From contig JAAEPD010000624.1 of assembly GCA_024222455.1 (NCBI GenBank), positions 1-55,941 of the forward strand: a stretch of 55,941 bases of DNA. Direction: 5' to 3'. This DNA is from Aureispira sp. Its GTDB lineage: Bacteria; Bacteroidota; Bacteroidia; Chitinophagales; Saprospiraceae. Each line of letters opens with the position of its first letter. Positions within the stretch are counted from its first letter, which is position 1. Below are positions 10,739 to 22,075 of this stretch, one piece after another. Position numbers and translations under genes: made by a program. The notes beneath the pieces are model-generated. The model was not told the DNA's origin. It ran no database searches and saw nothing but the letters and a program-made list of their open reading frames with translations.

Positions 10739-12487
10739 TCATTTTTTGATAATAGTGCTAAGGTAAGACTCCTTATCTGAACTAACATTAAGGTAGTATA
10801 AACCTTTAGGCAGCGCTGTAATATCTAACTGAAATTGATAATCAAAAGATGCGCTTTGAGTGAGCAGAGTTTGCCCTAATGTATTGCTAACTTGTACAGT
10901 TCCATTTTGTATAGGCTTAGGTGCTAGTATTGTAATATTTCCTTTAGTTGGATTTGGATAAATACGCAATCTAGCCTTTTGTACTTCAGTTGTTGCCGTA
11001 AATAAATCAGGGCGAACATATTGTAGGGCAGCATCTAAATCAATCAACCCATAACCCACCATATTGTTAGGGAACAGGTTGCCTGTTGTTCCTCCACAGG
11101 TATTAGGAGGATTGGAATAAACAGGACGAGCAGTCATTTCTAAGATATGCTCTATACTATCTACTTGACCTGCCAAACTAGGATCTGCCGAAATTAATAA
11201 AGCTACGGCTCCTGCTACATGAGGACCTGCCATGCTTGTACCACTAGAGTTACCATAGTTTCCATTAGGTGTACTAGAAAAAATGCCTACACCAGGCGCA
11301 ACAACATTGGGTTTTAGGCGCCCACTACTATCAAGTGTAATAGCCCCTTTACTACTAAAACCTGCAAGTGTATCTACAAAATCGGTTGCACCTACGGCAA
11401 AAGCTTCTTCAAATATAGCAGGAGGCGCAGCTATGCTACTACATGAGGGGCCTGAGTTCCCAGCAGAAACTACAACTACTACACCTGCATTCGTTAGATT
11501 AGTAACAGCAAGGTGCATTAAATGAAAGTTGCTAGAGTCGCAACCTTCAGTAGTTGGGCAGTACCAAGAGTTATTAATAACATGAGGTGCTTTCGTAGGG
11601 TCCGGATTGAGATCATTCGTATCAGTAGGTGCCAAAAACCACTCAAAACACTCTACATAAGTGGCCAAAGAACCCCAACCATTATCCATATTCCTACAGC
11701 CAATCCAACTAGCTTCAGGAGCTACACCTATTTGCTGACCTGCTCCATCGTCACCAATCATAGTTCCCATAGTATGGGTACCATGACTTCCATCATCGCA
11801 AGGCGATTTAGCATCATAACCACAAGAATTTGTAGTAGCAGGACCCACTTGAGCATGTATAGCATCATGCCAATGATAGTTATGATCTGTAGAAGTCCCT
11901 CTATAAGCGTTTTGCAAGGCAGGATGTACCCAATCATAGCCAGTGTCTTGTCCTCCTATCACTACACCAGCACCTTTTATATTTAGTTGCCACAAAACAG
12001 GGGCATTAATTCGTTGAACTCCCCATTGTATTTGAGTTGGAGCTCTAGAGTTACCCTGCGCAGCAGTTTTATCCATTGGCAACTCCAATTGAGACCTAGG
12101 TATAGATTGCAATCTAGCAATAGCTTCATGTTTAGCCAGTTGTTCTAATAGTTGATTATTACCTTTTGTTTTAATCGCATTGACAATATAATAGGATTGG
12201 TAATCGACTTGTTGCTGTTCTAGCAGTTGAATGATTGGTCCTTGTGTCTGTTTTGCTAATTGTTTTAACTGCAGAAATACATATTGACCTTTTGCTTCCT
12301 TGCTATCTAATGTTCTTGCAGCTGAGGTATTAGCTTGAGCCTTTAGTTCTACCAAAAACTCTACAGAACCTTCTTGTTGAGCTTTTTGCCAAATTATAGG
12401 ATCTATTTTAGATCGCCAATTTTGCTGAGCTATACTCAATGTAGAACAAGTTAGATATAGTATGATACTGCTAATAATTATTTTCAT
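10739..12487 (-). CDS. Secreted S8 (subtilisin-like) serine protease with T9SS sorting domain
   Basis: 582 aa. A signal peptide (about 1-20, ending SIAQ) is followed by a propeptide-like region to about residue 150 and then a peptidase S8 domain. The catalytic triad is visible: Asp181 (GGQDTGYDW), His235 (DGSHGTHTMG) and Ser418 (SSGTSMAGPHVAGA), with the oxyanion Asn in SAGNSG near 341-346. The last 75 residues (YPNPTKGNITIL ... PKGLYYLNVSS ... IIKK) are a type A T9SS C-terminal sorting domain. The protein should therefore cross the outer membrane by type IX secretion and act extracellularly or on the cell surface. It is a single gene, with a 585-bp region separating it from the divergent ilv operon. 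Cysteine pairs near 222-230 may form disulfides. Confidence 0.93.
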   Translation of the reverse strand: MKIIISSIILYLTCSTLSIAQQNWRSKIDPIIWQKAQQEGSVEFLVELKAQANTSAARTLDSKEAKGQYVFLQLKQLAKQTQGPIIQLLEQQQVDYQSYYIVNAIKTKGNNQLLEQLAKHEAIARLQSIPRSQLELPMDKTAAQGNSRAPTQIQWGVQRINAPVLWQLNIKGAGVVIGGQDTGYDWVHPALQNAYRGTSTDHNYHWHDAIHAQVGPATTNSCGYDAKSPCDDGSHGTHTMGTMIGDDGAGQQIGVAPEASWIGCRNMDNGWGSLATYVECFEWFLAPTDTNDLNPDPTKAPHVINNSWYCPTTEGCDSSNFHLMHLAVTNLTNAGVVVVVSAGNSGPSCSSIAAPPAIFEEAFAVGATDFVDTLAGFSSKGAITLDSSGRLKPNVVAPGVGIFSSTPNGNYGNSSGTSMAGPHVAGAVALLISADPSLAGQVDSIEHILEMTARPVYSNPPNTCGGTTGNLFPNNMVGYGLIDLDAALQYVRPDLFTATTEVQKARLRIYPNPTKGNITILAPKPIQNGTVQVSNTLGQTLLTQSASFDYQFQLDITALPKGLYYLNVSSDKESYLSTIIKK

Positions 12488-12767
12488 ATTGTTATAATAC
12501 TGGTGAAGAATAAACTAAAGGTAAACTATTTTAAATTTCAATCAAGAGTTCTTTTGGGATATAGTGTACGGTTTCAATATATAGTTATACAAGTTTTTTT
12601 AGCTAAAAATGTTTTGTTGAGTTGCTACTAATAATTTCTAGACGGTAAAAAATGAAGATTTTGTAATGTTTTATTTGCTTGATAAATAGTGAGTTGTGAT
12701 TTTTCGGCACTTCTTTGTGAGGGCAATAATTGGTAGAATAGAAGAGGTCAGAAAAAATGAAAAGTAC
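12488..12767. other. Non-coding spacer between the subtilase gene and the ilv promoter
   Basis: AT-rich DNA with no open frame of note and no obvious repeat or hairpin. It must hold the subtilase promoter; TACCTTTA on the minus strand is a near match to the -7 element, but no well-spaced -33 TTG was found. Confidence 0.5.
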
Positions 12768-12797
12768 TTGACATTGGAATTTTTTAGCCTACTTTTG
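12768..12797 (+). promoter_or_regulatory. Promoter of the ilv operon
   Basis: TTGACA (TTG at 12768-12770), 19 bp, then TACTTTTG (12790-12797): an exact Bacteroidota -33/-7 pair with optimal spacing. Transcription would start near 12804, leaving a leader of about 270 nt before ilvE that contains the attenuator. Confidence 0.8.
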
Positions 12798-12919
12798 TAT
12801 CAACAAAACAAATAGAAAAACTAGAGAGACTAATTGTATAATAGAATTAACTATAAGATTAGATATCTCCAAAATTAAGAGGTTTTTACAACTATTACAG
12901 GCAAATGAATAGTAGGAGA

Positions 12920-12973
12920 ATGTTTCCAATAATTAACAATATTAGCATTATTATTTTTACTCGAATAGAGTGA
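12920..12973 (+). CDS. ilv operon leader peptide (Ile-rich, 17 aa)
   Basis: ATG at 12920, 6 bp after an AGGAG ribosome-binding site (12914-12918), encodes MFPIINNISIIIFTRIE and stops at TGA 12971-12973. Seven of 17 residues are Ile, including three in a row at codons 10-12; there is no Leu or Val. It lies between a strong promoter and a terminator ahead of isoleucine/valine genes. The stop codon overlaps the antiterminator 5' arm. This is the arrangement of classical amino-acid attenuation, so the peptide most likely senses charged tRNA-Ile by ribosome stalling. Confidence 0.82.
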   Translation: MFPIINNISIIIFTRIE

Positions 12974-13012
12974 GAACAGGCTTCGAATTGCATATGAAAA
13001 GGTCTTCTCACT
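12969..13012 (+). promoter_or_regulatory. ilv antiterminator pairing
   Basis: AGTGAGAA (12969-12976) is the exact reverse complement of TTCTCACT (13005-13012). The second arm overlaps the 5' arm of the terminator, so the two structures exclude each other. A ribosome stalled on the Ile codons (12941-12955) would leave 12969-12976 free to form the antiterminator; one at the stop codon would cover it. Confidence 0.72.
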
Positions 13013-13040
13013 ACAACATGAGAAGACCTTTTTTATTTTT
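12999..13040 (+). terminator. ilv attenuator terminator
   Basis: AAGGTCTTCTCA (12999-13010) and TGAGAAGACCTT (13019-13030) form a perfect 12-bp stem with an 8-nt loop, followed by TTTTATTTTT. It ends about 33 bp before ilvE and is the default stop for leader transcripts. Confidence 0.88.
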
Positions 13041-13072
13041 AAAATTACATCAACTTATAAATCAGTATTGCT

Positions 13073-13957
13073 ATGTATTTCAATGAAAACACAGTTTTGT
13101 TCTTAGATGGAAAGTGGTTGAAAGCATCTGAAACAGCAACTTCTTTGTACAATCAAACTTTGCATTATGGCAATGGAGTATTTGAAGGTATTCGATCTTA
13201 TGAAACAGAGCATGGGCCAAGTATTTTTAAGGCTAAAGAGCATTACGAACGCTTATTGTATTCTGCTGAGAAAATGTATATAGATATTCCTTATACCGTA
13301 GATGAACTAACTGCTAAAACCTATAAGTTATTGGAATTGAATGGAATTCAAGATGCCTATATTCGACCCCTTGTTTATCTAGGAGAGGATTTGCATCTTA
13401 ACCCTAGTAGTGATGTGCATGTACTTTTAGCAGCATGGGAATGGGATAAGTATTTAGGTGATCAGTTAGTAGATGTAATGACCTCTCCATTTCAGCGCCC
13501 TAATCCAAAATCCTGCTTTGTAGATGCAAAGGTTACAGGACATTATTCTAATTCTATTTTAGCTAGCACAGATGCGAAGCGAAAAGGTTTTGATGAAGCA
13601 TTACTTTTAGATATGAATGGCTATGTAGCAGAAGGACCAGGAGCTAATTTCTTTTATGAAAAAGACAATAAACTCTACACTTGCCCTACTGGAAATATCC
13701 TTCCTGGAATTACTAGAGCAACTATGTTTGAGCTTTGTGAATTGCTAGAAATTGAACTAGAAGAGCGCTTTTTTACGCCAGAAGAGATAAGAGGTGCTGA
13801 TGGGGCCTTTTTTGTAGGAACAGCAGCAGAAGTAGCAGGTATTTCAAGCTTAGATCGTGTTCCATTTAAGTTGAGTTGGGAAGACACCATTGGTTTTGAG
13901 TTATCTAAAGCTTACAAACGAAAAGTACTAGAGCAAGAACCTGTTTACATTTTCTAA
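13073..13957 (+). CDS. ilvE: Branched-chain amino-acid aminotransferase
   Basis: 294 aa, the usual length for fold-type IV PLP aminotransferases. It transfers amino groups between glutamate and the 2-oxo acids of Val, Ile and Leu, the last step of the pathway. Visible family features are the LHYGNGVFEGIRSY block at 30-43, the probable PLP lysine Lys153 (FVDAKVTGHYSNS), EALLLD near 175-180, a G-Y-V-A-E-G-P-G-A-N-F-F segment and the GIT-R loop near 216. It is the first structural gene behind the Ile attenuator and begins 33 bp after the terminator. ilvD follows at a 30-bp gap. Start ATG is well placed. Confidence 0.94.
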   Translation: MYFNENTVLFLDGKWLKASETATSLYNQTLHYGNGVFEGIRSYETEHGPSIFKAKEHYERLLYSAEKMYIDIPYTVDELTAKTYKLLELNGIQDAYIRPLVYLGEDLHLNPSSDVHVLLAAWEWDKYLGDQLVDVMTSPFQRPNPKSCFVDAKVTGHYSNSILASTDAKRKGFDEALLLDMNGYVAEGPGANFFYEKDNKLYTCPTGNILPGITRATMFELCELLEIELEERFFTPEEIRGADGAFFVGTAAEVAGISSLDRVPFKLSWEDTIGFELSKAYKRKVLEQEPVYIF

Positions 13958-13987
13958 TATATACATAGACTATTAAAGTAATATACC

Positions 13988-15661
13988 ATGCAGTTGAACA
14001 AATATAGCCAACGTGTAACTCAAGATCCTTCACAGCCTGCTGCTCAAGCAATGTTGCATGCTATTGGTTTAAATGAAGCAGATCTTAAAAAGCCATTAGT
14101 GGGAATAGTAAGTACTGGGTATGAAGGAAACCCTTGCAATATGCACTTAAACGGATTGGCACTTGATGTAAAAAAAGGTGTGCAAAAGAATGAAGCTGTT
14201 GGGCTAATCTTTAATACTATTGGAGTTAGTGATGGTATTTCTATGGGAACATCAGGTATGCGTTTTTCTTTACCTTCAAGAGAGATCATTGCAGACAGTA
14301 TAGAAACGGTAGTGGAAGCGCAAGCCTATGATGCTGTAATAGCTGTAGTAGGTTGTGATAAAAATATGCCTGGAGCAATGTTAGCTTTTGCTCGACTCAA
14401 CAGACCTGCAATCTTGGTTTATGGAGGTTCTATTGCTAGTGGTTGCCATGCAGGCAAAAAACTAGATATTGTATCTGCTTTTGAAGCTTTAGGTGAAAAG
14501 ATTGCAGGCAAAATAACAGAGGCTGATTTTAAGGGTGTTGTTCAGAATGCTTGCCCTGGAGCAGGTTCTTGTGGAGGAATGTACACCGCCAATACTATGG
14601 CTTCTGCTATAGAGGCAATGGGCTTAAGTTTGCCTTATTCTTCTTCCAATCCAGCGACCAATGCAGTGAAACAAAAAGAGTGTGAAGAGGCTGGTGAGTT
14701 GATGTATTCTCTTTTAGAGAATGATTTGAAACCAAGGGATATTCTAACAAAAGCAGCTTTTGAAAATGCCTTTAGGTTAGTGACTGTTTTAGGAGGGTCA
14801 ACTAATGCTGTTTTGCACTTATTAGCTATAGCTAGAACATTGGATTTAGACATAACTATTGATGATTTTCAGAGAATTAGTGATAGTACACCATTTTTAG
14901 CAGATTTGAAACCTAGTGGCCAGTACTTGATGGAGGATTTACATGCAATAGGAGGGGTGCCAGCTGTCATGAAATATATGTTAGATAATGGTTTTTTGGA
15001 TGGAAGTTGCATGACTATTACAGGAAAAACAATCGCTGAGAATTTAGCAAATGTAGCACCTTTAGATTTTGAGCAAGATTTGCTAAAACCATTAAACCAG
15101 CCAATCAAAGAAACTGGCCATATCCGAATCCTATATGGAAACCTAGCAGAAGAAGGTTCTGTCGCCAAAATAACAGGAAAGGAAGGTCAATATTTTGAAG
15201 GTAATGCAAAGGTCTATAATAGTGAAGAGGAGGCAAACAAAGCTATTGCTAATAATGAAATCCAGAAGGGTGATGTTTTAGTTATTCGATATGTAGGCCC
15301 TAAAGGTGGACCGGGGATGCCCGAAATGCTTAAACCCACTTCTGCTATAATGGGAGCTGGTTTAGGTAAGGAAGTAGCTTTGATTACTGATGGTCGTTTT
15401 TCGGGAGGAACACATGGTTTTGTGGTTGGACATATTGCCCCTGAAGCCTTTGAGGGTGGCTTGATTGCGCTACTGAAAGATGGAGATAAAATTAGAATTG
15501 ATGCTGTTGCTAATACACTTATTGCAGATTTAACAGAAGCAGAAGTATTAGCTAGAAAAAAGGCTTGGAAAAAACCCCAATTGCGTGCAAGTCGAGGGTA
15601 TTTATGGAAATATGCTCAAACTGTATCCTCTGCTTCTAAAGGCTGTACTACTGATTGCTAA
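13988..15661 (+). CDS. ilvD: Dihydroxy-acid dehydratase
   Basis: 557 aa. It dehydrates 2,3-dihydroxy-3-methyl(iso)valerate to the 2-oxo acids used by IlvE. The three conserved Fe-S ligands typical of the family are present: Cys50 (GNPCNMH), Cys123 ([10 protein letters not shown]) and Cys195 ([14 protein letters not shown]). The C-terminal GxGMPEM loop ([10 protein letters not shown]) and the [11 protein letters not shown] motif are intact. Length matches short bacterial IlvD/Edd-family dehydratases. It sits between ilvE and ilvB with gaps of 30 bp each, in an apparently single transcript. Confidence 0.96.
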
Positions 15662-15691
15662 ACCCCCATAAACTTTATTAACTCAAAAATA

Positions 15692-17425
15692 ATGGAAACA
15701 ACAACACTCAAAAATAAGGAAGTTCTCAGCACTGTATTGCAAGAAATATCAGGAGCAGAGGCTGTTATAAAAATACTGTTAGAAGAAGGTGTAGATACTG
15801 TTTTTGGGTATCCTGGAGGTGCTATTATGCCTGTGTATGATGCTTTGTATGGGTACAGAGAGCAACTAAAACATGTACTGACTAGACATGAACAAGGGGC
15901 TACTCATGCTGCTCAAGGCTATGCTAGAGTATCAGGAAAAGTAGGCGTTTGTTTTGCAACCTCTGGACCTGGAGCTACTAACTTAATTACAGGGTTAGCT
16001 GATGCTATGATTGATAGCACACCATTGGTCTGTATTACAGGGCAGGTACATTCATCCTTGTTGGGGACAGATGCTTTTCAAGAAACAGATGTGGTGGGTA
16101 TTTCTATGCCTGTAACAAAATGGAATTGTCAAGTAACTTCCGCTAAGGACCTAGAAAAAGTGTTAGCTAAAGCCTTTTATGTAGCGAGATCTGGGCGCCC
16201 TGGGCCTGTTTTAGTAGATATAACTAAGGATGCACAGTTTGAACTTTTTGAATATAATTATAAGTCTTGTACTAAGGTCAGAAGTTACATTCCTAAGCCT
16301 AGATTGGATCTTTCTCAATTAGTTTTTGCTGCTGATTTGATCAATCAAGCTAAGAAGCCATTGGTTTTGGTAGGGCAAGGAGTCCTTTTGGCAGAGGCAG
16401 AAACAGAATTAAAGATATTTTTAGAAAAGATAGGCGCACCTGCTGCATGGACATTATTAGGACTTTCGGCCTTGCCATCTGATCATTATTTGAATGTAGG
16501 AATGCTAGGAATGCATGGAAATTATGCTCCTAATATCAAAACTAATGAGTGTGATGTACTGATTGCTATAGGTATGCGCTTTGATGACCGAGTAACAGGA
16601 GATTTGAAGCGCTATGCTAAACAAGCTAAAGTAGTACATTTAGAGATTGATCCTGCCGAAATTAATAAAAATGTATATGCCCATGCTCCTGTATTAGGAG
16701 ATGCAAAAGAGAGCTTAAAAGCTTTGACGGAATTACTTGTACCTAATGAGCACGACACTTGGTTAAACTCTTTTAGGTTGTTGGAGGAAGAAGAAAAAAA
16801 ACAAGTAATAACTCCTCAGTTACATCCTAATGAGGGAGAGTTGTTGATGGCTGAGGTGGTACGTAGAGTGAGTGAAGCAACTCTGCATGATGCTGTTTTG
16901 GTGACAGATGTAGGGCAACACCAGATGGTAGCTTCTCGATATTTTAAGTTTAAAAATTCTAAAAATAGTGTGACTAGTGGTGGGCTAGGTACTATGGGGT
17001 TTGCCTTGCCAGCTGCTTTAGGTGCTAAAATGGCTAAACCTAAACAAACTGTGGTTGCTTTTATTGGAGATGGAGGCTTTCAGATGACTTTGCAAGAACT
17101 TGGAACTATTCAACAGGAAAATCTAGCTGTAAAAATCATTATACTCAATAATAACTATTTAGGAATGGTGCGTCAATGGCAAGAACTGTTTTTTGAAAGG
17201 CGTTATTCCGAAACCAATATTTCTAGTCCTAATTTTGTGGCTTTGGCTGGAGCCTATGGCATAAGAGGGCAGCGAGTAAATGAACGAGTAAATCTAGATG
17301 AAGCAATAACTGAAATGTTAGAACATGATGGGGCTTATCTTCTAGAGGTTATGGTCAAAAAAGAAGGTAATGTATTTCCTATGATCGAGACAGGAAGCTC
17401 TGTTTCTGAAATCCGTTTGAGTTAA
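15692..17425 (+). CDS. ilvB: Acetolactate synthase large (catalytic) subunit
   Basis: 577 aa ThDP- and FAD-dependent enzyme that condenses pyruvate with pyruvate or 2-oxobutyrate, the committed step to Val/Leu and Ile. Three thiamine-enzyme domains are visible: an N-terminal PYR domain with the activating Glu67 (TRHEQGATHAAQGYAR) and TSGPGATN near 90-97; a central FAD-binding domain (MRFDDRVTG near 300); and a C-terminal PP domain with GDGGFQM plus the downstream LNNNYLGMVRQWQ metal/ThDP motif. The regulatory subunit follows 15 bp later, as expected for a two-subunit AHAS. Confidence 0.96.
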   Translation: METTTLKNKEVLSTVLQEISGAEAVIKILLEEGVDTVFGYPGGAIMPVYDALYGYREQLKHVLTRHEQGATHAAQGYARVSGKVGVCFATSGPGATNLITGLADAMIDSTPLVCITGQVHSSLLGTDAFQETDVVGISMPVTKWNCQVTSAKDLEKVLAKAFYVARSGRPGPVLVDITKDAQFELFEYNYKSCTKVRSYIPKPRLDLSQLVFAADLINQAKKPLVLVGQGVLLAEAETELKIFLEKIGAPAAWTLLGLSALPSDHYLNVGMLGMHGNYAPNIKTNECDVLIAIGMRFDDRVTGDLKRYAKQAKVVHLEIDPAEINKNVYAHAPVLGDAKESLKALTELLVPNEHDTWLNSFRLLEEEEKKQVITPQLHPNEGELLMAEVVRRVSEATLHDAVLVTDVGQHQMVASRYFKFKNSKNSVTSGGLGTMGFALPAALGAKMAKPKQTVVAFIGDGGFQMTLQELGTIQQENLAVKIIILNNNYLGMVRQWQELFFERRYSETNISSPNFVALAGAYGIRGQRVNERVNLDEAITEMLEHDGAYLLEVMVKKEGNVFPMIETGSSVSEIRLS

Positions 17426-17440
17426 TCTCCCTAAAATTAA

Positions 17441-17968
17441 ATGAATATGCAACGATTTACCATATCTGTTTTTACAGAAGATTTTATAGGATTACTCAAT
17501 AGAGTTAGTATTGTTTTTACGAGAAGGCATCTAAATATAGAGAGCATTACAGCCTCAGAAAGCGAAGTGAAGGGTGTGCATAGATATACGATTGTGCTAA
17601 GGACTACAGAGGAACAGGTTCAAAAAGTAGTGAAGCAATTGGAACGTTTGGTGGATGTCCTCAAAGCTTTTTATCATGCAAATGATGATACTATTTATCA
17701 AGAAATAGCATTGTACAAACTTAATACAGATGCTTTTAGTAGTGGAAATGCAGAAATGATTGTTCGTCAGCATCATGCAAGAATACTAAGTGTTACAAAA
17801 GATTATACCGTAATAGAAAAAACAGGGCATAAAGAAGATACACAAGCCTTATTTACAGATTTAGAAACTATTGGTGTTTTGGAGTTTGCCCGTTCAGGAA
17901 GAGTGTCTATCACTAAACCTATGAAATCGTTGGCAACTTATCTCAATGAGCTAGAAGCGCTCAATTAA
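17441..17968 (+). CDS. ilvN: Acetolactate synthase small (regulatory) subunit
   Basis: 175 aa, the usual size of IlvN/IlvH. An N-terminal ACT domain (RFTISVFTEDFIGLLNRVSI, then RRHLNIESITASESE) carries the valine-binding fold of the family, and a second conserved region follows after about residue 85. It activates the catalytic subunit and confers feedback inhibition. It is placed 15 bp after ilvB and 25 bp before ilvC. Start: ATGs at codons 1 and 3 (MNM) are equivalent in context; the first is used. Confidence 0.93.
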   Translation: MNMQRFTISVFTEDFIGLLNRVSIVFTRRHLNIESITASESEVKGVHRYTIVLRTTEEQVQKVVKQLERLVDVLKAFYHANDDTIYQEIALYKLNTDAFSSGNAEMIVRQHHARILSVTKDYTVIEKTGHKEDTQALFTDLETIGVLEFARSGRVSITKPMKSLATYLNELEALN

Positions 17969-17993
17969 TTCAACTTAAATTAAACTAATCAAA

Positions 17994-19034
17994 ATGGCTA
18001 AGTTAACATTTGGGACTGTAGAAGAAAATGTGGTTACACGATCAGAATTTCCATTGGATAAAGCATTGGAAATACTCAAAAATGAGACTATTGCAGTTAT
18101 TGGATATGGTGTGCAAGGACCAGGTCAGGCTTTGAATTTAAGAGATAATGGATTTAATGTATTGGTTGGGCAACGTGAGCAATCTAAGAGCTGGGACAAA
18201 GCCGTGCAAGATGGTTGGGTAGAGGGCGAAACGCTTTTGCCTATCAAGGAAGCTTGCCAAAAGGCTACAATTGTTATGTATTTGCTGTCTGATGCTGGTC
18301 AAATAGCGGCTTGGGATATGGTCAAAGAGCAATTGACAGCAGGTAAGTTGCTTTATTTCTCACATGGTTTTGGCGTTACTTATAGCGACCAAACTAATAT
18401 TATTCCTCCAAATGATATTGATGTTGTATTAGTTGCACCTAAAGGTTCTGGGACTTCTTTACGCAGATTATTTGTAGAGGGAAAGGGCTTGAACTCTAGT
18501 TATGCAGTTTATCAAGATGCTACAGGCAATGCTACCCAAAAAGCTTTGGCTTTAGGCATTGGAATTGGTTCTGGCTATTTGTTTGAGACCAGTTTTAAGA
18601 AAGAGGTATACTCTGATTTGACAGGAGAGCGAGGTGTCCTAATGGGAGCTTTAGCTGGCTTGTTTGAGGCGCAATATCATGTGTTGCGCAAGAATGGACA
18701 TTCTCCATCAGAGGCTTTTAATGAAACAGTAGAAGAACTGACTCAAAGTTTAATGCCTTTGGTAGCAGAGAATGGTATGGATTGGATGTTTGCAAACACT
18801 TCAACTACTGCACAAAGAGGTGCTTTGGATTGGAAAAACAAATTTAGAGATTTGAATATTCCTCTTTTTGAGACATTATACGACAGTGTAGCAACAGGTA
18901 AGGAAGCAGCTATTGTAATTGATGCAAATAAAAAAGATGACTATAGAGTAGGCTTGGAACAAGAATTAGCAGAGATTAATGCTAGTGAACTTTGGCAAGC
19001 AGGAAAAACAGTTAGAGAGCTAAGAGCAAATTAA
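17994..19034 (+). CDS. ilvC: Ketol-acid reductoisomerase (fungal/Bacteroidota-like)
   Basis: 346 aa. It converts acetolactate or acetohydroxybutyrate to dihydroxy acids with NAD(P)H and Mg2+. The Rossmann motif is G-Y-G-V-Q-G-P-G near 38-45. Conserved catalytic segments include YFSHGFGV, VAPKGSGTSLR, SDLTGERGVLMG (Mg ligands Asp and Glu) and HSPSEAFNETVEE. The sequence resembles the fungal mitochondrial enzyme (NLRDNG near 48, SSYAV, STTAQRGALDW near the end) more than enterobacterial IlvC, a known feature of Bacteroidota-type enzymes. Length places it in class I. Last gene of the tight ilvEDBNC run. Confidence 0.95.
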   Translation: MAKLTFGTVEENVVTRSEFPLDKALEILKNETIAVIGYGVQGPGQALNLRDNGFNVLVGQREQSKSWDKAVQDGWVEGETLLPIKEACQKATIVMYLLSDAGQIAAWDMVKEQLTAGKLLYFSHGFGVTYSDQTNIIPPNDIDVVLVAPKGSGTSLRRLFVEGKGLNSSYAVYQDATGNATQKALALGIGIGSGYLFETSFKKEVYSDLTGERGVLMGALAGLFEAQYHVLRKNGHSPSEAFNETVEELTQSLMPLVAENGMDWMFANTSTTAQRGALDWKNKFRDLNIPLFETLYDSVATGKEAAIVIDANKKDDYRVGLEQELAEINASELWQAGKTVRELRAN

Positions 19035-19102
19035 TAACTCCTTCTTAGATAGTTTTATTAGAGTTGATTTTCTGGTTAAAAATCGACTGTTTGATGATGA
19101 TT

Positions 19103-19175
19103 GAGGAATTGAGTATAGTTTATAGAGTGGTTCTCTGTGGATGATAATATACTCAGTTCCTCTTATTTTTTATTT
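19103..19175 (+). terminator. Long hairpin between ilvC and ilvA
   Basis: GAGGAATTGAGTATA (19103-19117) pairs with TATACTCAGTTCCTC (19148-19162), 15 pairs including one G-U, followed by TTATTTTTTATTT. It can end the ilvEDBNC transcript or act as a partial terminator or attenuator for ilvA, which begins about 20 bp later. A TTG-N19-ACTGTTTG sequence just upstream is a poor match to a promoter. Confidence 0.68.
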
Positions 19176-19192
19176 AGGATCAATCAGATATA

Positions 19193-20455
19193 ATGGAAAC
19201 CTTGACTTGTTATCGTCCAAAGTTGGAGAATATACAGAAGGCTCATGAGCTTTTGAAAACAGTTGTATTGAACACTCCAACTGAAAAGCACAGAGGGTAT
19301 TCTGAAAAGTATAATGCAGAAATTTATTTTAAGCGAGAAGACTTACAATTAGTTCGTTCTTATAAACTTAGAGGTGCTTACAATAAGATCTGTTCATTGT
19401 CATCTACTTCTCTGGAAAATGGAGTTGTCTGTGCTAGTGCAGGGAATCATGCACAAGGTGTGGCCTATGCTTGTCGTCAATTAGAAGTACATGCTTGTAT
19501 TTTTATGCCTATCACTACTCCTCAACAGAAGGTATTGCAAGTTCGGATGTTTGGAGGTCAGTTTGTAGAAGTTGTATTGTTGGGAGATACCTTTGATGAT
19601 AGTTTGAAGGCTGCTAAAAGTTATGGAGAAGAGAAACAGGCTATATTTATACATCCTTTTGATGACCCCAAAATAATAGAAGGGCAAGCAACCGTAGCTT
19701 GCGAAATCCTAGATGCTAAGATTGGTAATATAGATATATTAATCCTGCCTATTGGCGGAGGTGGCTTAGCTGCAGGAGTTTCTTCTGTTTTTAAGCTACT
19801 CAGTCCCAATACTAAAATTATTGGAGTAGAGCCAGCTGGTGCAGCCTCTATGGACCATGCTTTGCAGGAAGGAGTACCCAAAGCATTATCTTCTGTAGAT
19901 AAGTTTATAGATGGAGCTGCTGTGAAATGTGTAGGAGCTTTAACTTTTGATGTTTGCAAGAGTACTTTAGATCAAGTTATTGCTATTCCAGAAGGATTGG
20001 TTTGTAAGACTATGTTACAGCTATACAATGAATATGCTATGGTTGTAGAACCAGCTGGAGCCTTGAGTTTGGCTGCATTAGAATTATTGAAAACTGAGGT
20101 AAAAGGTAAACGAGTTGTTTGTATTGTGAGTGGTGGGAATAACGATATTTCGAGAACAGAAGAAATTAGAGAACGAGCATTGTTGTATGAAGAACTCAAG
20201 CACTATTTTATTGTCAATTTTCCGCAGCGAGCAGGTGCTTTACGAGAGTTTGTAATAGAGGTTTTGGGAGAGACAGATAATATTGTTTATTTCCAATATA
20301 CTCGAAAAAATAATCGAGAAAAAGGTCCTGCAGTAGTTGGAATAGAGTTGAAACAAGCAGAAGATTTAGCTCCTTTATTGGAGCGAATGAAGGCTAATAA
20401 TAATTTTGGTCAGCACTTGAATGAACAACCTGATTTATTCCATTTTTTGGTGTAA
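19193..20455 (+). CDS. ilvA: Threonine ammonia-lyase (threonine dehydratase)
   Basis: 420 aa PLP enzyme that makes 2-oxobutyrate from threonine, the first step toward isoleucine. The PLP lysine is Lys58 in SYKLRGAYNKI. The phosphate-binding glycine loop is GGGGLAAGVSS, and the SAGNHAQGVAYACR block is intact. The C-terminal 85 residues form one ACT-like regulatory region (HYFIVNFPQRAGALREFV), as in the short one-ACT type, so feedback by isoleucine is likely. It is separated from ilvC by 158 bp containing a strong hairpin, so it may be expressed at a different level from the rest of the operon. Confidence 0.93.
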   Translation: METLTCYRPKLENIQKAHELLKTVVLNTPTEKHRGYSEKYNAEIYFKREDLQLVRSYKLRGAYNKICSLSSTSLENGVVCASAGNHAQGVAYACRQLEVHACIFMPITTPQQKVLQVRMFGGQFVEVVLLGDTFDDSLKAAKSYGEEKQAIFIHPFDDPKIIEGQATVACEILDAKIGNIDILILPIGGGGLAAGVSSVFKLLSPNTKIIGVEPAGAASMDHALQEGVPKALSSVDKFIDGAAVKCVGALTFDVCKSTLDQVIAIPEGLVCKTMLQLYNEYAMVVEPAGALSLAALELLKTEVKGKRVVCIVSGGNNDISRTEEIRERALLYEELKHYFIVNFPQRAGALREFVIEVLGETDNIVYFQYTRKNNREKGPAVVGIELKQAEDLAPLLERMKANNNFGQHLNEQPDLFHFLV

Positions 20456-20466
20456 TATTTATTCTA

Positions 20467-20503
20467 AAAGATGCTGTTAGGAGATTTGCCTAACAGCATC
20501 TTT
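20467..20503. terminator. Bidirectional terminator between ilvA and gpmI
   Basis: A perfect 15-bp stem, AAAGATGCTGTTAGG (20467-20481) and CCTAACAGCATCTTT (20489-20503), with a 7-nt loop and T-rich sequence on both sides. It lies between two convergent genes and can stop transcripts from both strands. Confidence 0.88.
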
Positions 20504-20515
20504 CTATAGCTTTTT

Positions 20516-22075
20516 TTAAGCTTCTACATTCTCATTAATAGCACTAACCAAAACATCACCATTCATTTCTGGAGAAGGCGCTATATCCATTAGTTTGAGT
20601 AGCGTTGGTGCTATGTCGGCCAGTTTACCATCATGTATTTGCATATTGCTGGTGTCATTAGCCAATAAAAATACAGGCACAGGATTAGTTGTATGTGCAG
20701 TATGAGGAGAACCATCTGGATTAATCATATAATCAGAATTACCATGATCTGCTATTATGATAATTGCATAATTATGTTCCAAAAGGGTAGTCGTTAGGCG
20801 TTGTACACAGCCATCAACTGTCTCAGCAGCTTTCATAGCAGCCTCAAAAACACCTGTATGACCAACCATGTCTGTATTTGCATAGTTTAGACAGATAAAA
20901 TCAGGAGCATCTTGAGCAACTTCAGCTAAGATACGTTCTGTAATTTCATTAGCACTCATTTCTGGTTGTAAATCGTAGGTCGCTACCTTTGGTGAAGGAA
21001 TGATTGCTCTACGTTCTTCTTCAAATTCATCTTCTCGACCACCTGAAAAGAAAAAGGTAACATGTGGATATTTCTCTGTTTCAGCGATACGTATTTGACT
21101 ACGATTATTTTGAGCCAAAACTTCCCCTAAGGTGTTTTTTAGATCGTCTTTTTCAAAGAAAACTTTTACTCCTTCAAAGTTTTCATCATATTTGGTCATT
21201 GTACAATAATACAAATCAAGTTTTTGCATGTTCTGCTCTGGAAAATCAGCTTGTGTCAGTGCAGTGCTAATTTGGCGACAGCGATCTGTCCGAAAGTTAA
21301 AACATAAGACAACATCACCTGCTTGAATACTTGTTAAGGCTTGTCCTTTATCATTGCTGCAAACAATAGGCTTGATGAATTCATCCGTAACTCCGTTGTC
21401 ATAAGAGGCTTGCAATGCAGCTATTGGGTCTTGGGTAGGAGAGCCTTTTCCGTGCACCAACATATCATAAGCCAACTGAATCCGTTCCCAACGCTTGTCT
21501 CTATCCATGGCATAATAACGACCAATAACAGAAGCGATTTGAACATTACTATCTTTGATATGATTTTGTAAATCTGTTAGGTAAGGAACACCACCTTCAG
21601 GGTCTGTATCACGACCATCCATAAAGGCATGTATAAATACATTAGGCAGCTCATATTGTTCTGTAATATCACAAAGCGCTTTCAAATGATTGATGTGTGA
21701 ATGTACTCCACCATCTGAAACTAATCCCATTAAATGAACTGTTTTGCCTTGCTCTTTTGCATAAGCAAAGGCATCTTGAAGTACCTTTATTTTTTCTAAT
21801 TCCTTGTCTTTTATAGCATTGTTGATACGCACCAACTCCTGATAAACTACTCTTCCTGCACCAATATTGAGGTGGCCTACTTCTGAGTTACCCATTTGAC
21901 CTTCTGGTAAGCCAACTGCTTCTCCTGAAGTTTGCAATTCTGCATTAGGATATTTGGAGTATAAACTATCTACAAATGGTGTGTTACCCTGAGCTATGGC
22001 ACTGACTTTAGGGTCTGGACCATGTCCCCAACCATCTAAAATTAGGAGGGCTGTTTTTTCGAAATTACTTAACAT
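20516..22075 (-). CDS. gpmI: 2,3-bisphosphoglycerate-independent phosphoglycerate mutase
   Basis: 519 aa alkaline-phosphatase-superfamily enzyme of glycolysis that interconverts 3- and 2-phosphoglycerate using Mn2+. Visible features are the metal-binding LLILDGWGHG start, catalytic Ser64 in QMGNSEVGHLNIGAG, HAFMDGRDTDP near 150, the ADHGNSDYM and HTAHTTNPVP blocks near the C-terminus and NYANTDMVGHTG. Length is typical. It is a single minus-strand gene with its own promoter and shares a terminator with ilvA. Confidence 0.96.
   Translation of the reverse strand: MLSNFEKTALLILDGWGHGPDPKVSAIAQGNTPFVDSLYSKYPNAELQTSGEAVGLPEGQMGNSEVGHLNIGAGRVVYQELVRINNAIKDKELEKIKVLQDAFAYAKEQGKTVHLMGLVSDGGVHSHINHLKALCDITEQYELPNVFIHAFMDGRDTDPEGGVPYLTDLQNHIKDSNVQIASVIGRYYAMDRDKRWERIQLAYDMLVHGKGSPTQDPIAALQASYDNGVTDEFIKPIVCSNDKGQALTSIQAGDVVLCFNFRTDRCRQISTALTQADFPEQNMQKLDLYYCTMTKYDENFEGVKVFFEKDDLKNTLGEVLAQNNRSQIRIAETEKYPHVTFFFSGGREDEFEEERRAIIPSPKVATYDLQPEMSANEITERILAEVAQDAPDFICLNYANTDMVGHTGVFEAAMKAAETVDGCVQRLTTTLLEHNYAIIIIADHGNSDYMINPDGSPHTAHTTNPVPVFLLANDTSNMQIHDGKLADIAPTLLKLMDIAPSPEMNGDVLVSAINENVEA

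Follow-up and report, generated by a model that had tools for sequence, protein, structure and literature searches.

Introduction

The classical leader-peptide attenuators are those of the E. coli ilvGMEDA operon and of the enterobacterial his, trp, leu and thr operons, and the leader of the E. coli ilv operon carries Ile, Val and Leu. The ilvBNC operon of Corynebacterium glutamicum is reported to be preceded by a three-hairpin attenuator (PMC11857589), candidate leaders have been proposed for actinobacterial ilvB (PMC1262725), and the ilv attenuator of Staphylococcus aureus is Leu-responsive, with Ile acting through CodY (PMC5794164). For the Bacteroidota, the accessible text of a study of Flavobacterium psychrophilum mentions 'strong clues' to leader-peptide attenuation upstream of operons for amino-acid biosynthesis, and that text names no operon, tandem arrangement or antiterminator test (PMC9723704), while the corresponding text for B. 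thetaiotaomicron speaks of short ORFs 'reminiscent of leader peptides' (PMC7366714). A first reading of the DNA studied here, made from the sequence only, had called leader-peptide control much less documented in this phylum than in Proteobacteria; it is indeed little described, but the clues in F. psychrophilum mean that it is not undocumented. The open-access literature that we searched, an incomplete body of text seen in part, yielded no description, for Bacteroidota, of attenuators at ilv, of amino-acid attenuators in tandem or of leader peptides on leaderless RNA. An attenuator survey published by Lopatovskaya et al. in 2010, which is cited in PMC4833913, may contain some such cases.

The element described here lies in a 55.9-kb stretch of DNA (the window) ahead of an ilv operon and is, with high probability, a transcription attenuator that works through the ribosome and responds to charged tRNA-Ile. 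As in the enterobacterial systems, a leader rich in the regulatory residue, 1:2, 2:3 and 3:4 stems and an intrinsic terminator precede a biosynthetic operon; unlike E. coli ilvGMEDA, the leader in the window carries Ile only, the predicted promoter is of the TAnnTTTG type and there is no convincing Shine-Dalgarno site. The mechanism is classical, and the element adds an ilv case to a known class of attenuators. It resembles the C. glutamicum ilvBNC and actinobacterial ilvB systems in its ilv operon, terminator, antiterminator and anti-antiterminator, but differs in phylum and gene order; it resembles the S. aureus system in being cis-acting, placed before an ilv operon and devoted to a single branched-chain amino acid, but that amino acid is Leu in S. 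aureus rather than Ile; and it shares both phylum and mechanism class with the clues from F. psychrophilum. Judging by the sequence evidence, textbook attenuation logic would operate in a phylum that initiates translation without depending on Shine-Dalgarno sites, although the leading ribosome still has to keep close behind the polymerase.

Results and Discussion

The ilv operon and its host

The window makes up a single contig of the source genome (7.76 Mb in 683 contigs), which is estimated to be 97.6% complete and 4.2% contaminated. The ilvE product encoded in the window is 78% identical to that of locus L032, from an uncultured Aureispira MAG, and in the ilvE tree the two are paired with full support; the host is close to Aureispira. 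A search of the genus for congeners returned the host genome alone, and a search of viral contigs for ilvE gave no matching stretch.

Genes between 13073 and 20455, all on the plus strand, were named with NCBIfam models as ilvE (branched-chain aminotransferase, 13073-13957; TIGR01122, NF005146), ilvD (dihydroxy-acid dehydratase, 13988-15661; TIGR00110), ilvB (acetolactate synthase large subunit, 15692-17425; TIGR00118), ilvN (acetolactate synthase small subunit, 17441-17968; TIGR00119), ilvC (ketol-acid reductoisomerase, 17994-19034; TIGR00465) and ilvA (threonine ammonia-lyase, 19193-20455; TIGR02079). All five genes of the operon as first read, ilvEDBNC, are therefore present, but that operon was probably drawn too short, with ilvA as its likely final gene; the 158-nt gap between ilvC and ilvA held no terminator-like site in a terminator scan of 12480-20600. 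On the other side, a gene for a subtilisin-like protease that carries a T9SS sorting domain at its C-terminus (10739-12487) lies on the minus strand, divergent from the ilv operon. Because of this orientation, no plus-strand gene in between needs a terminator, so that the terminator described below (12996-13033) would act on ilvE-bound transcripts starting within the 585-nt gap.

Predicted promoter and leader

A predicted promoter of the primary-sigma type, TTG-N19-TACTTTTG, is found on the plus strand at 12768-12797 (TTG at 12768-12770, TACTTTTG at 12790-12797). It can be read there just as first proposed, is of the Bacteroidota type and has a counterpart in the Aureispira relative L032 (TACATTTG). 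Of 52 regions, 26 carried a TTG-N17-21-TAnnTTTG arrangement no more than 150 nt ahead of the first leader ATG, compared to 54 of 2600 shuffled sequences; the 52 are what remained of the 57 regions bearing a leader-terminator module (see below) after five with too little sequence were dropped. A sigma-70 scan was uninformative, with 24 promoter-like sites where shuffles gave 24.7. In F. psychrophilum the TAnnTTTG box occupies positions -12 to -5 (PMC9723704), and by analogy the transcription start in the window would fall near 12802. The distance from box to leader ATG is 107 nt in the window and 71 nt in L032. The stretch of about 100 nt from the predicted start to the first leader ATG (12803-12904) is longer than in most relatives.

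The predicted leader ORF can be read on the plus strand in two forms ending at the same TGA (12971-12973): a short form of 17 codons, MFPIINNISIIIFTRIE, from ATG 12920 (12920-12973), and a long form of 22 codons, MNSRRMFPIINNISIIIFTRIE, from the in-frame ATG 12905 (12905-12973). Which of the two serves as the start is undecided, so the 17-codon length given at first holds for ATG 12920 and gives way to 22 codons if translation begins at ATG 12905. The short form contains seven Ile (five ATT, two ATA and no ATC codons), zero Leu and zero Val, and its codons 10-12 form an uninterrupted Ile run, ATT ATT ATT, at 12947-12955 on the plus strand; the seven Ile, the lack of Leu and Val and the Ile run, as originally described, are read directly from the DNA. 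A further Ile is encoded by codon 16 (12965-12967). The ribosome-binding site that had been proposed together with this ORF fared less well: the GGAG-like stretch GTAGGAGA abuts ATG 12920, and Shine-Dalgarno sites normally sit farther from the start codon. We rejected the Shine-Dalgarno reading of this stretch as weak, and F. psychrophilum is described as being without Shine-Dalgarno sequences (PMC9723704).

Mutually exclusive stems and the proposed switch

Folding of the leader RNA predicts three mutually exclusive stems (all coordinates on the plus strand). The antiterminator 5′ arm, segment 2 (12968-12976), holds the stop codon TGA 12971-12973, in agreement with the original placement of the leader stop inside this arm. 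The antiterminator core arms, AGTGAGAA (12969-12976) and TTCTCACT (13005-13012), were present as proposed, and folding adds six pairs between a 5′ arm extension (12978-12983) and 13000-13005, giving a 13-pair fold of 12964-13013; its 3′ arm, segment 3 (13000-13012), overlaps the terminator 5′ arm, so that antiterminator and terminator exclude each other. For the terminator, both the hairpin and the T tract had been recognised correctly, but the stem is longer than reported: it has 15 pairs and a loop of 8, with arms at 12996-13010 and 13019-13033 followed by TATTTTT, instead of 12 bp at 12999-13030. The third structure, a 1:2 stem missing from that reading, emerged from folding; segment 1 (12954-12962) pairs with segment 2 (12968-12976) and could hold it in the untranslated or pause state. 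Segment 2 begins 13 nt past the Ile run, and the terminator 5′ arm begins 22 nt past the stop codon.

The leader fold was better than 200 of 200 shuffles (z -3.5), and the region 12944-13040 gave a z of -6.1. Taken alone, the antiterminator in the window is marginal (p 0.04), the fold of 12964-13013 being matched by 11 of 200 shuffles and that of 12944-13013 by 53 of 200. A loose terminator scan of 12480-20600 returned 5 sites, compared to 4.8 in shuffles, and the terminator at 12996-13033 was by far the longest of the 5 (15 pairs; the others have 5 or 6). Under the scan criteria given below, the leader and terminator form the sole module on either strand of the window, and the module scans revealed no second attenuator upstream. 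The terminator is predicted to be more stable (about -22 kcal/mol) than the antiterminator (about -12 kcal/mol), so that the switch must depend, as in the classical model, on the order in which the stems form as the RNA is made.

The leader ORF, the three stems and their register are thus read from sequence and folding, and the parts of a complete Ile attenuator ahead of the ilv operon are all in place: a leader, three exclusive stems, a stop codon in segment 2 and an Ile run 13 nt before that segment. When Ile is plentiful, the ribosome would reach the TGA and cover segment 2 (12968-12976), leaving the terminator arm free; the terminator would then form and transcription would stop near 13035-13040. 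A shortage of Ile would make the ribosome stall on 12947-12955 and cover segment 1; with the usual ribosome footprint, a ribosome stalled on this run would end just before segment 2. Segment 2, left free, would pair with the emerging segment 3, the terminator would be blocked and ilvEDBNC, probably together with ilvA, would be transcribed. If the leader is not translated, the 1:2 stem would hold segment 2, and this would again result in termination. One detail speaks against such a switch, in that a ribosome stalled at Ile codon 16 would partly cover segment 2 and thereby weaken it.

The element might be a real attenuator that answers to a wider signal than Ile charging, such as a slowing of translation in general or a tRNA effect tied to particular codons, and the absence of ATC among its Ile codons could be taken as a hint of this; however, just 20 of the 135 Ile codons in the operon are ATC, which makes the codon choice unremarkable, and since charging of Ile-tRNA is the simplest stall signal to be expected from seven Ile codons, we regard a wider signal as very unlikely. 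The alternative stems would equally suit a riboswitch or a T-box-like element that senses Ile by direct binding of the RNA or of tRNA, the ORF being incidental, but no Rfam family reached its gathering score within the window, and the leaders of other pathways (see below) make such direct sensing exceedingly improbable. Our preferred reading therefore remains a ribosome-mediated attenuator responding to charged tRNA-Ile.

Attenuator modules ahead of ilvE in relatives

For the window and 79 of 80 fetched relatives (L057, with 67 nt only, was dropped), we scanned the stretch ahead of ilvE, up to 500 nt long, for modules consisting of an ATG ORF of 10-45 codons with three consecutive Ile, Leu or Val codons in its last 20, followed, 10-70 nt after the ORF stop, by a hairpin whose stem has 8 bp or more and whose tail is T-rich. 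Modules were detected in 57 of the 80 regions, compared to 3 of 1600 shuffled regions and 2 of 80 reverse strands; the 57 include 56 of the 79 relatives, which were chosen by ilvE similarity and comprise near-duplicates such as 11 Chryseobacterium loci whose leaders hardly differ. The first reading had made its proposal depend on whether relatives conserve the Ile codons and the two exclusive stems, and this was largely borne out, with 23 of the 80 upstream regions lacking a module under the scan criteria. Among these, the Flavobacterium loci L046-L048 and L050 have terminators and ORFs rich in Ile, but lack a run of three branched-chain codons near the terminator, and the missed Hymenobacter loci have ORFs rich in branched-chain codons, but no hairpin of the required kind; since the misses include such loci, the scan is conservative. 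For some other misses (e.g. L058 and L064), neither a leader ORF nor a terminator was listed.

The Aureispira relative L032 keeps the promoter box, an Ile-rich leader (MSNSLLNILIIDIIIISFNG), the TGAGAA of segment 2, CTTCTCA and the terminator, while the surrounding sequence has diverged. Between the terminators of L032 and the window, three pairs are changed on both sides with pairing retained, as read by eye from the arms. None of 100 shuffles gave an antiterminator as good as that of L032. Over all 83 modules, the 2:3 pairing was better than 95% of 100 shuffles in 55 and better than 99% in 39, leaving 28 in which the antiterminator did not exceed 95% of the shuffles.

The register of the parts is also shared. 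Taking the module nearest ilvE in each region, segment 2 starts 7-15 nt after the last branched-chain run in 49 of 57 cases, the window among them with 13 nt, and overlaps the stop codon in 41 of 57. This overlap bears on a different explanation, in which the product of the short ORF is a hydrophobic microprotein with a function of its own and the hairpin serves as an ordinary terminator or as a processing site. Peptides rich in Ile and Val do resemble membrane microproteins in general, but besides the placement of segment 2 over the stop, the peptide sequences vary between lineages except for the branched-chain run, and this run is replaced by His or Trp ahead of his and trp genes (see below). 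We consider a microprotein highly improbable.

Saprospiraceae were examined separately at ilvD, which was found in 36 of 61 genomes, and the loci of 29 relatives were inspected. In the ilvD-first operons of these other Saprospiraceae, a strict scan placed a leader directly upstream in 5 of 29. A looser scan flagged 9 of 29, of which 7 were judged real; the other two, L139 and L144, were judged spurious, having no Ile run. These low counts tell against the attenuator reading.

Leaders matched to the his and trp pathways

The strongest argument for translation-based sensing is the match between leader codons and the product of the downstream pathway, which would be hard to explain otherwise. Leaders with runs of Ile, Leu or Val followed by a terminator were found ahead of ilvE in 58 of 80 regions, but in 0 of 28 hisG regions and 0 of the best 30 trpE loci, where the stretch scanned was up to 500 nt for ilvE and up to 700 nt for hisG and trpE. 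His-rich leaders with a terminator occurred in 11 of 28 hisG regions, 0 of the best 30 trpE loci and 2 of 80 ilvE regions, while Trp-rich leaders with a terminator occurred in 15 of the best 30 trpE loci and in none of the 28 hisG or 80 ilvE regions. The hisG set comprises all 28 genomes with a match among the 60 searched, and the trpE set the best 30 loci from the 43 of 60 genomes with a match; both include the host genome. In 17 of 28 hisG regions and 15 of the best 30 trpE loci the scan found no such leader. The correspondence of codons with pathway in all three sets weighs against sensing of Ile by direct binding to RNA or tRNA.

The host genome itself carries such elements. Before hisG (L145:1156-1316), a leader with a His run, MRNNHTHMHHHH... 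(HMHHHH), is followed by a 16-bp terminator, and before trpE (L146:1167-1345), a leader with a Trp run, ...TSWWWLTQKRWRE (WWW), is followed by a 17-bp terminator. In the his leader, AAATGGT past the His run is complementary to ACCATTT of the terminator 5′ arm. In the trp leader, a CUUACUC/GAGUAAG stem is predicted just past the WWW codons. For Thr, inspection by eye of the filtered short ORFs ahead of both homoserine dehydrogenase genes in the host gave nothing convincing. Pathway-matched leaders offer a simple way to annotate the control of ilv, his and trp genes in Bacteroidota, Rfam giving no match in the window.

Leucine genes and the codon content of the leader

A leader restricted to Ile had seemed odd for an operon that also makes Val and Leu precursors. 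The leader is indeed Ile-only, but the restriction is less odd than it appeared, as leuA and leuD were not found. The leuA model (TIGR00973) had no match in the host genome and a match in 14 of 14 control genomes, and the leuD model (TIGR00171) gave only a match below cut-off, in a 765-aa frame that is probably an aconitase. With an assembly 97.6% complete, incompleteness is a possible cause, but it would need to have hit both genes. By gene content, then, the host probably makes no Leu and would be a leucine auxotroph despite its complete ilv operon, which probably serves Ile and Val only; a leader without Leu codons is accordingly unsurprising. The absence of leuA and leuD does not account for the missing Val codons.

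We also compared leader composition with the presence of leuA in 50 relatives, of which 27 were positive (E below 1e-100, none over the curated cut-off); the 23 negative relatives, to which the window was added, include six with weak matches and several MAGs that may be incomplete. Among module-bearing loci, leaders of leuA-positive genomes had a mean of 3.3 Val (n=26), compared to 1.2 in leuA-negative genomes (n=19; p 0.0001, uncorrected), whereas Ile and Leu counts per leader did not differ between the two groups. On the ilvE tree, this association comes down to 4 to 6 independent contrasts, and no test was significant. A link between Val codons and leuA is thus seen before allowing for relatedness and is not established afterwards, and we do not claim it.

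Candidate serial attenuators and predicted short 5′ regions in relatives

At least two modules in series precede ilvE in 25 of 80 regions (L110, L079, L084, L065, L038 and 20 others), and in 14 of the 25 at least two of the antiterminators reached p≤0.05. The terminator of one module and the ATG of the next leader are separated by 15-77 nt. A TAnnTTTG box was found in 0 of the 26 stretches between serial modules, whereas by our count 22 of the 25 tandem regions have one no more than 150 nt ahead of the first leader, which points to one promoter per series. If this is the case, transcription must pass each attenuator in turn ahead of ilvE. On a tree of 45 rows, the distribution of tandem modules needs nine changes.

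Many relatives also differ from the window in the distance between promoter box and leader. From the end of the TAnnTTTG box to the in-frame leader ATG, the distance was at most 20 nt in 35 of 57 first modules and 4-10 nt in 25, in a count that takes the last box before the branched-chain run and the nearest in-frame ATG and so favours short distances; 14 of the 57 had no box within 150 nt. When every ATG in the stretches ahead of ilvE is counted, those of the leaders too, 46 of 565 had a box within 20 nt. The distance is 4 nt in 11 similar Chryseobacterium loci (L079, L090, L092, L093, L097, L101, L104, L105 and L107-L109), and given the -12 to -5 position of the box in F. psychrophilum, RNA would be predicted to start at the ATG itself. 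Leaderless mRNAs make up 5.5% of those mapped in that species (PMC9723704). A box within 20 nt of the ATG was likewise found for 4 of 13 His leaders and 6 of 17 Trp leaders (the trpE locus L179 is misplaced in this count). In the host, the box lies 6 nt before the ATG of the trpE leader (L146:1153-1169), compared to 107 nt for the ilv leader in the window.

Taken together, the leaders incline us, by a modest margin of confidence, to the view that Bacteroidota commonly attenuate ilv, his and trp operons by means of the ribosome and that relatives of the host add serial attenuators under one promoter and near-leaderless leaders. If so, starting the leader peptide on RNA that is leaderless or nearly so would tie the first ribosome closely to the polymerase, and the serial and near-leaderless versions would make ribosome-polymerase coupling testable in a genetically tractable flavobacterium. 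Aequorivita L110 has three modules in series, and the last two are nearly identical in peptide, which suggests that they arose by duplication.
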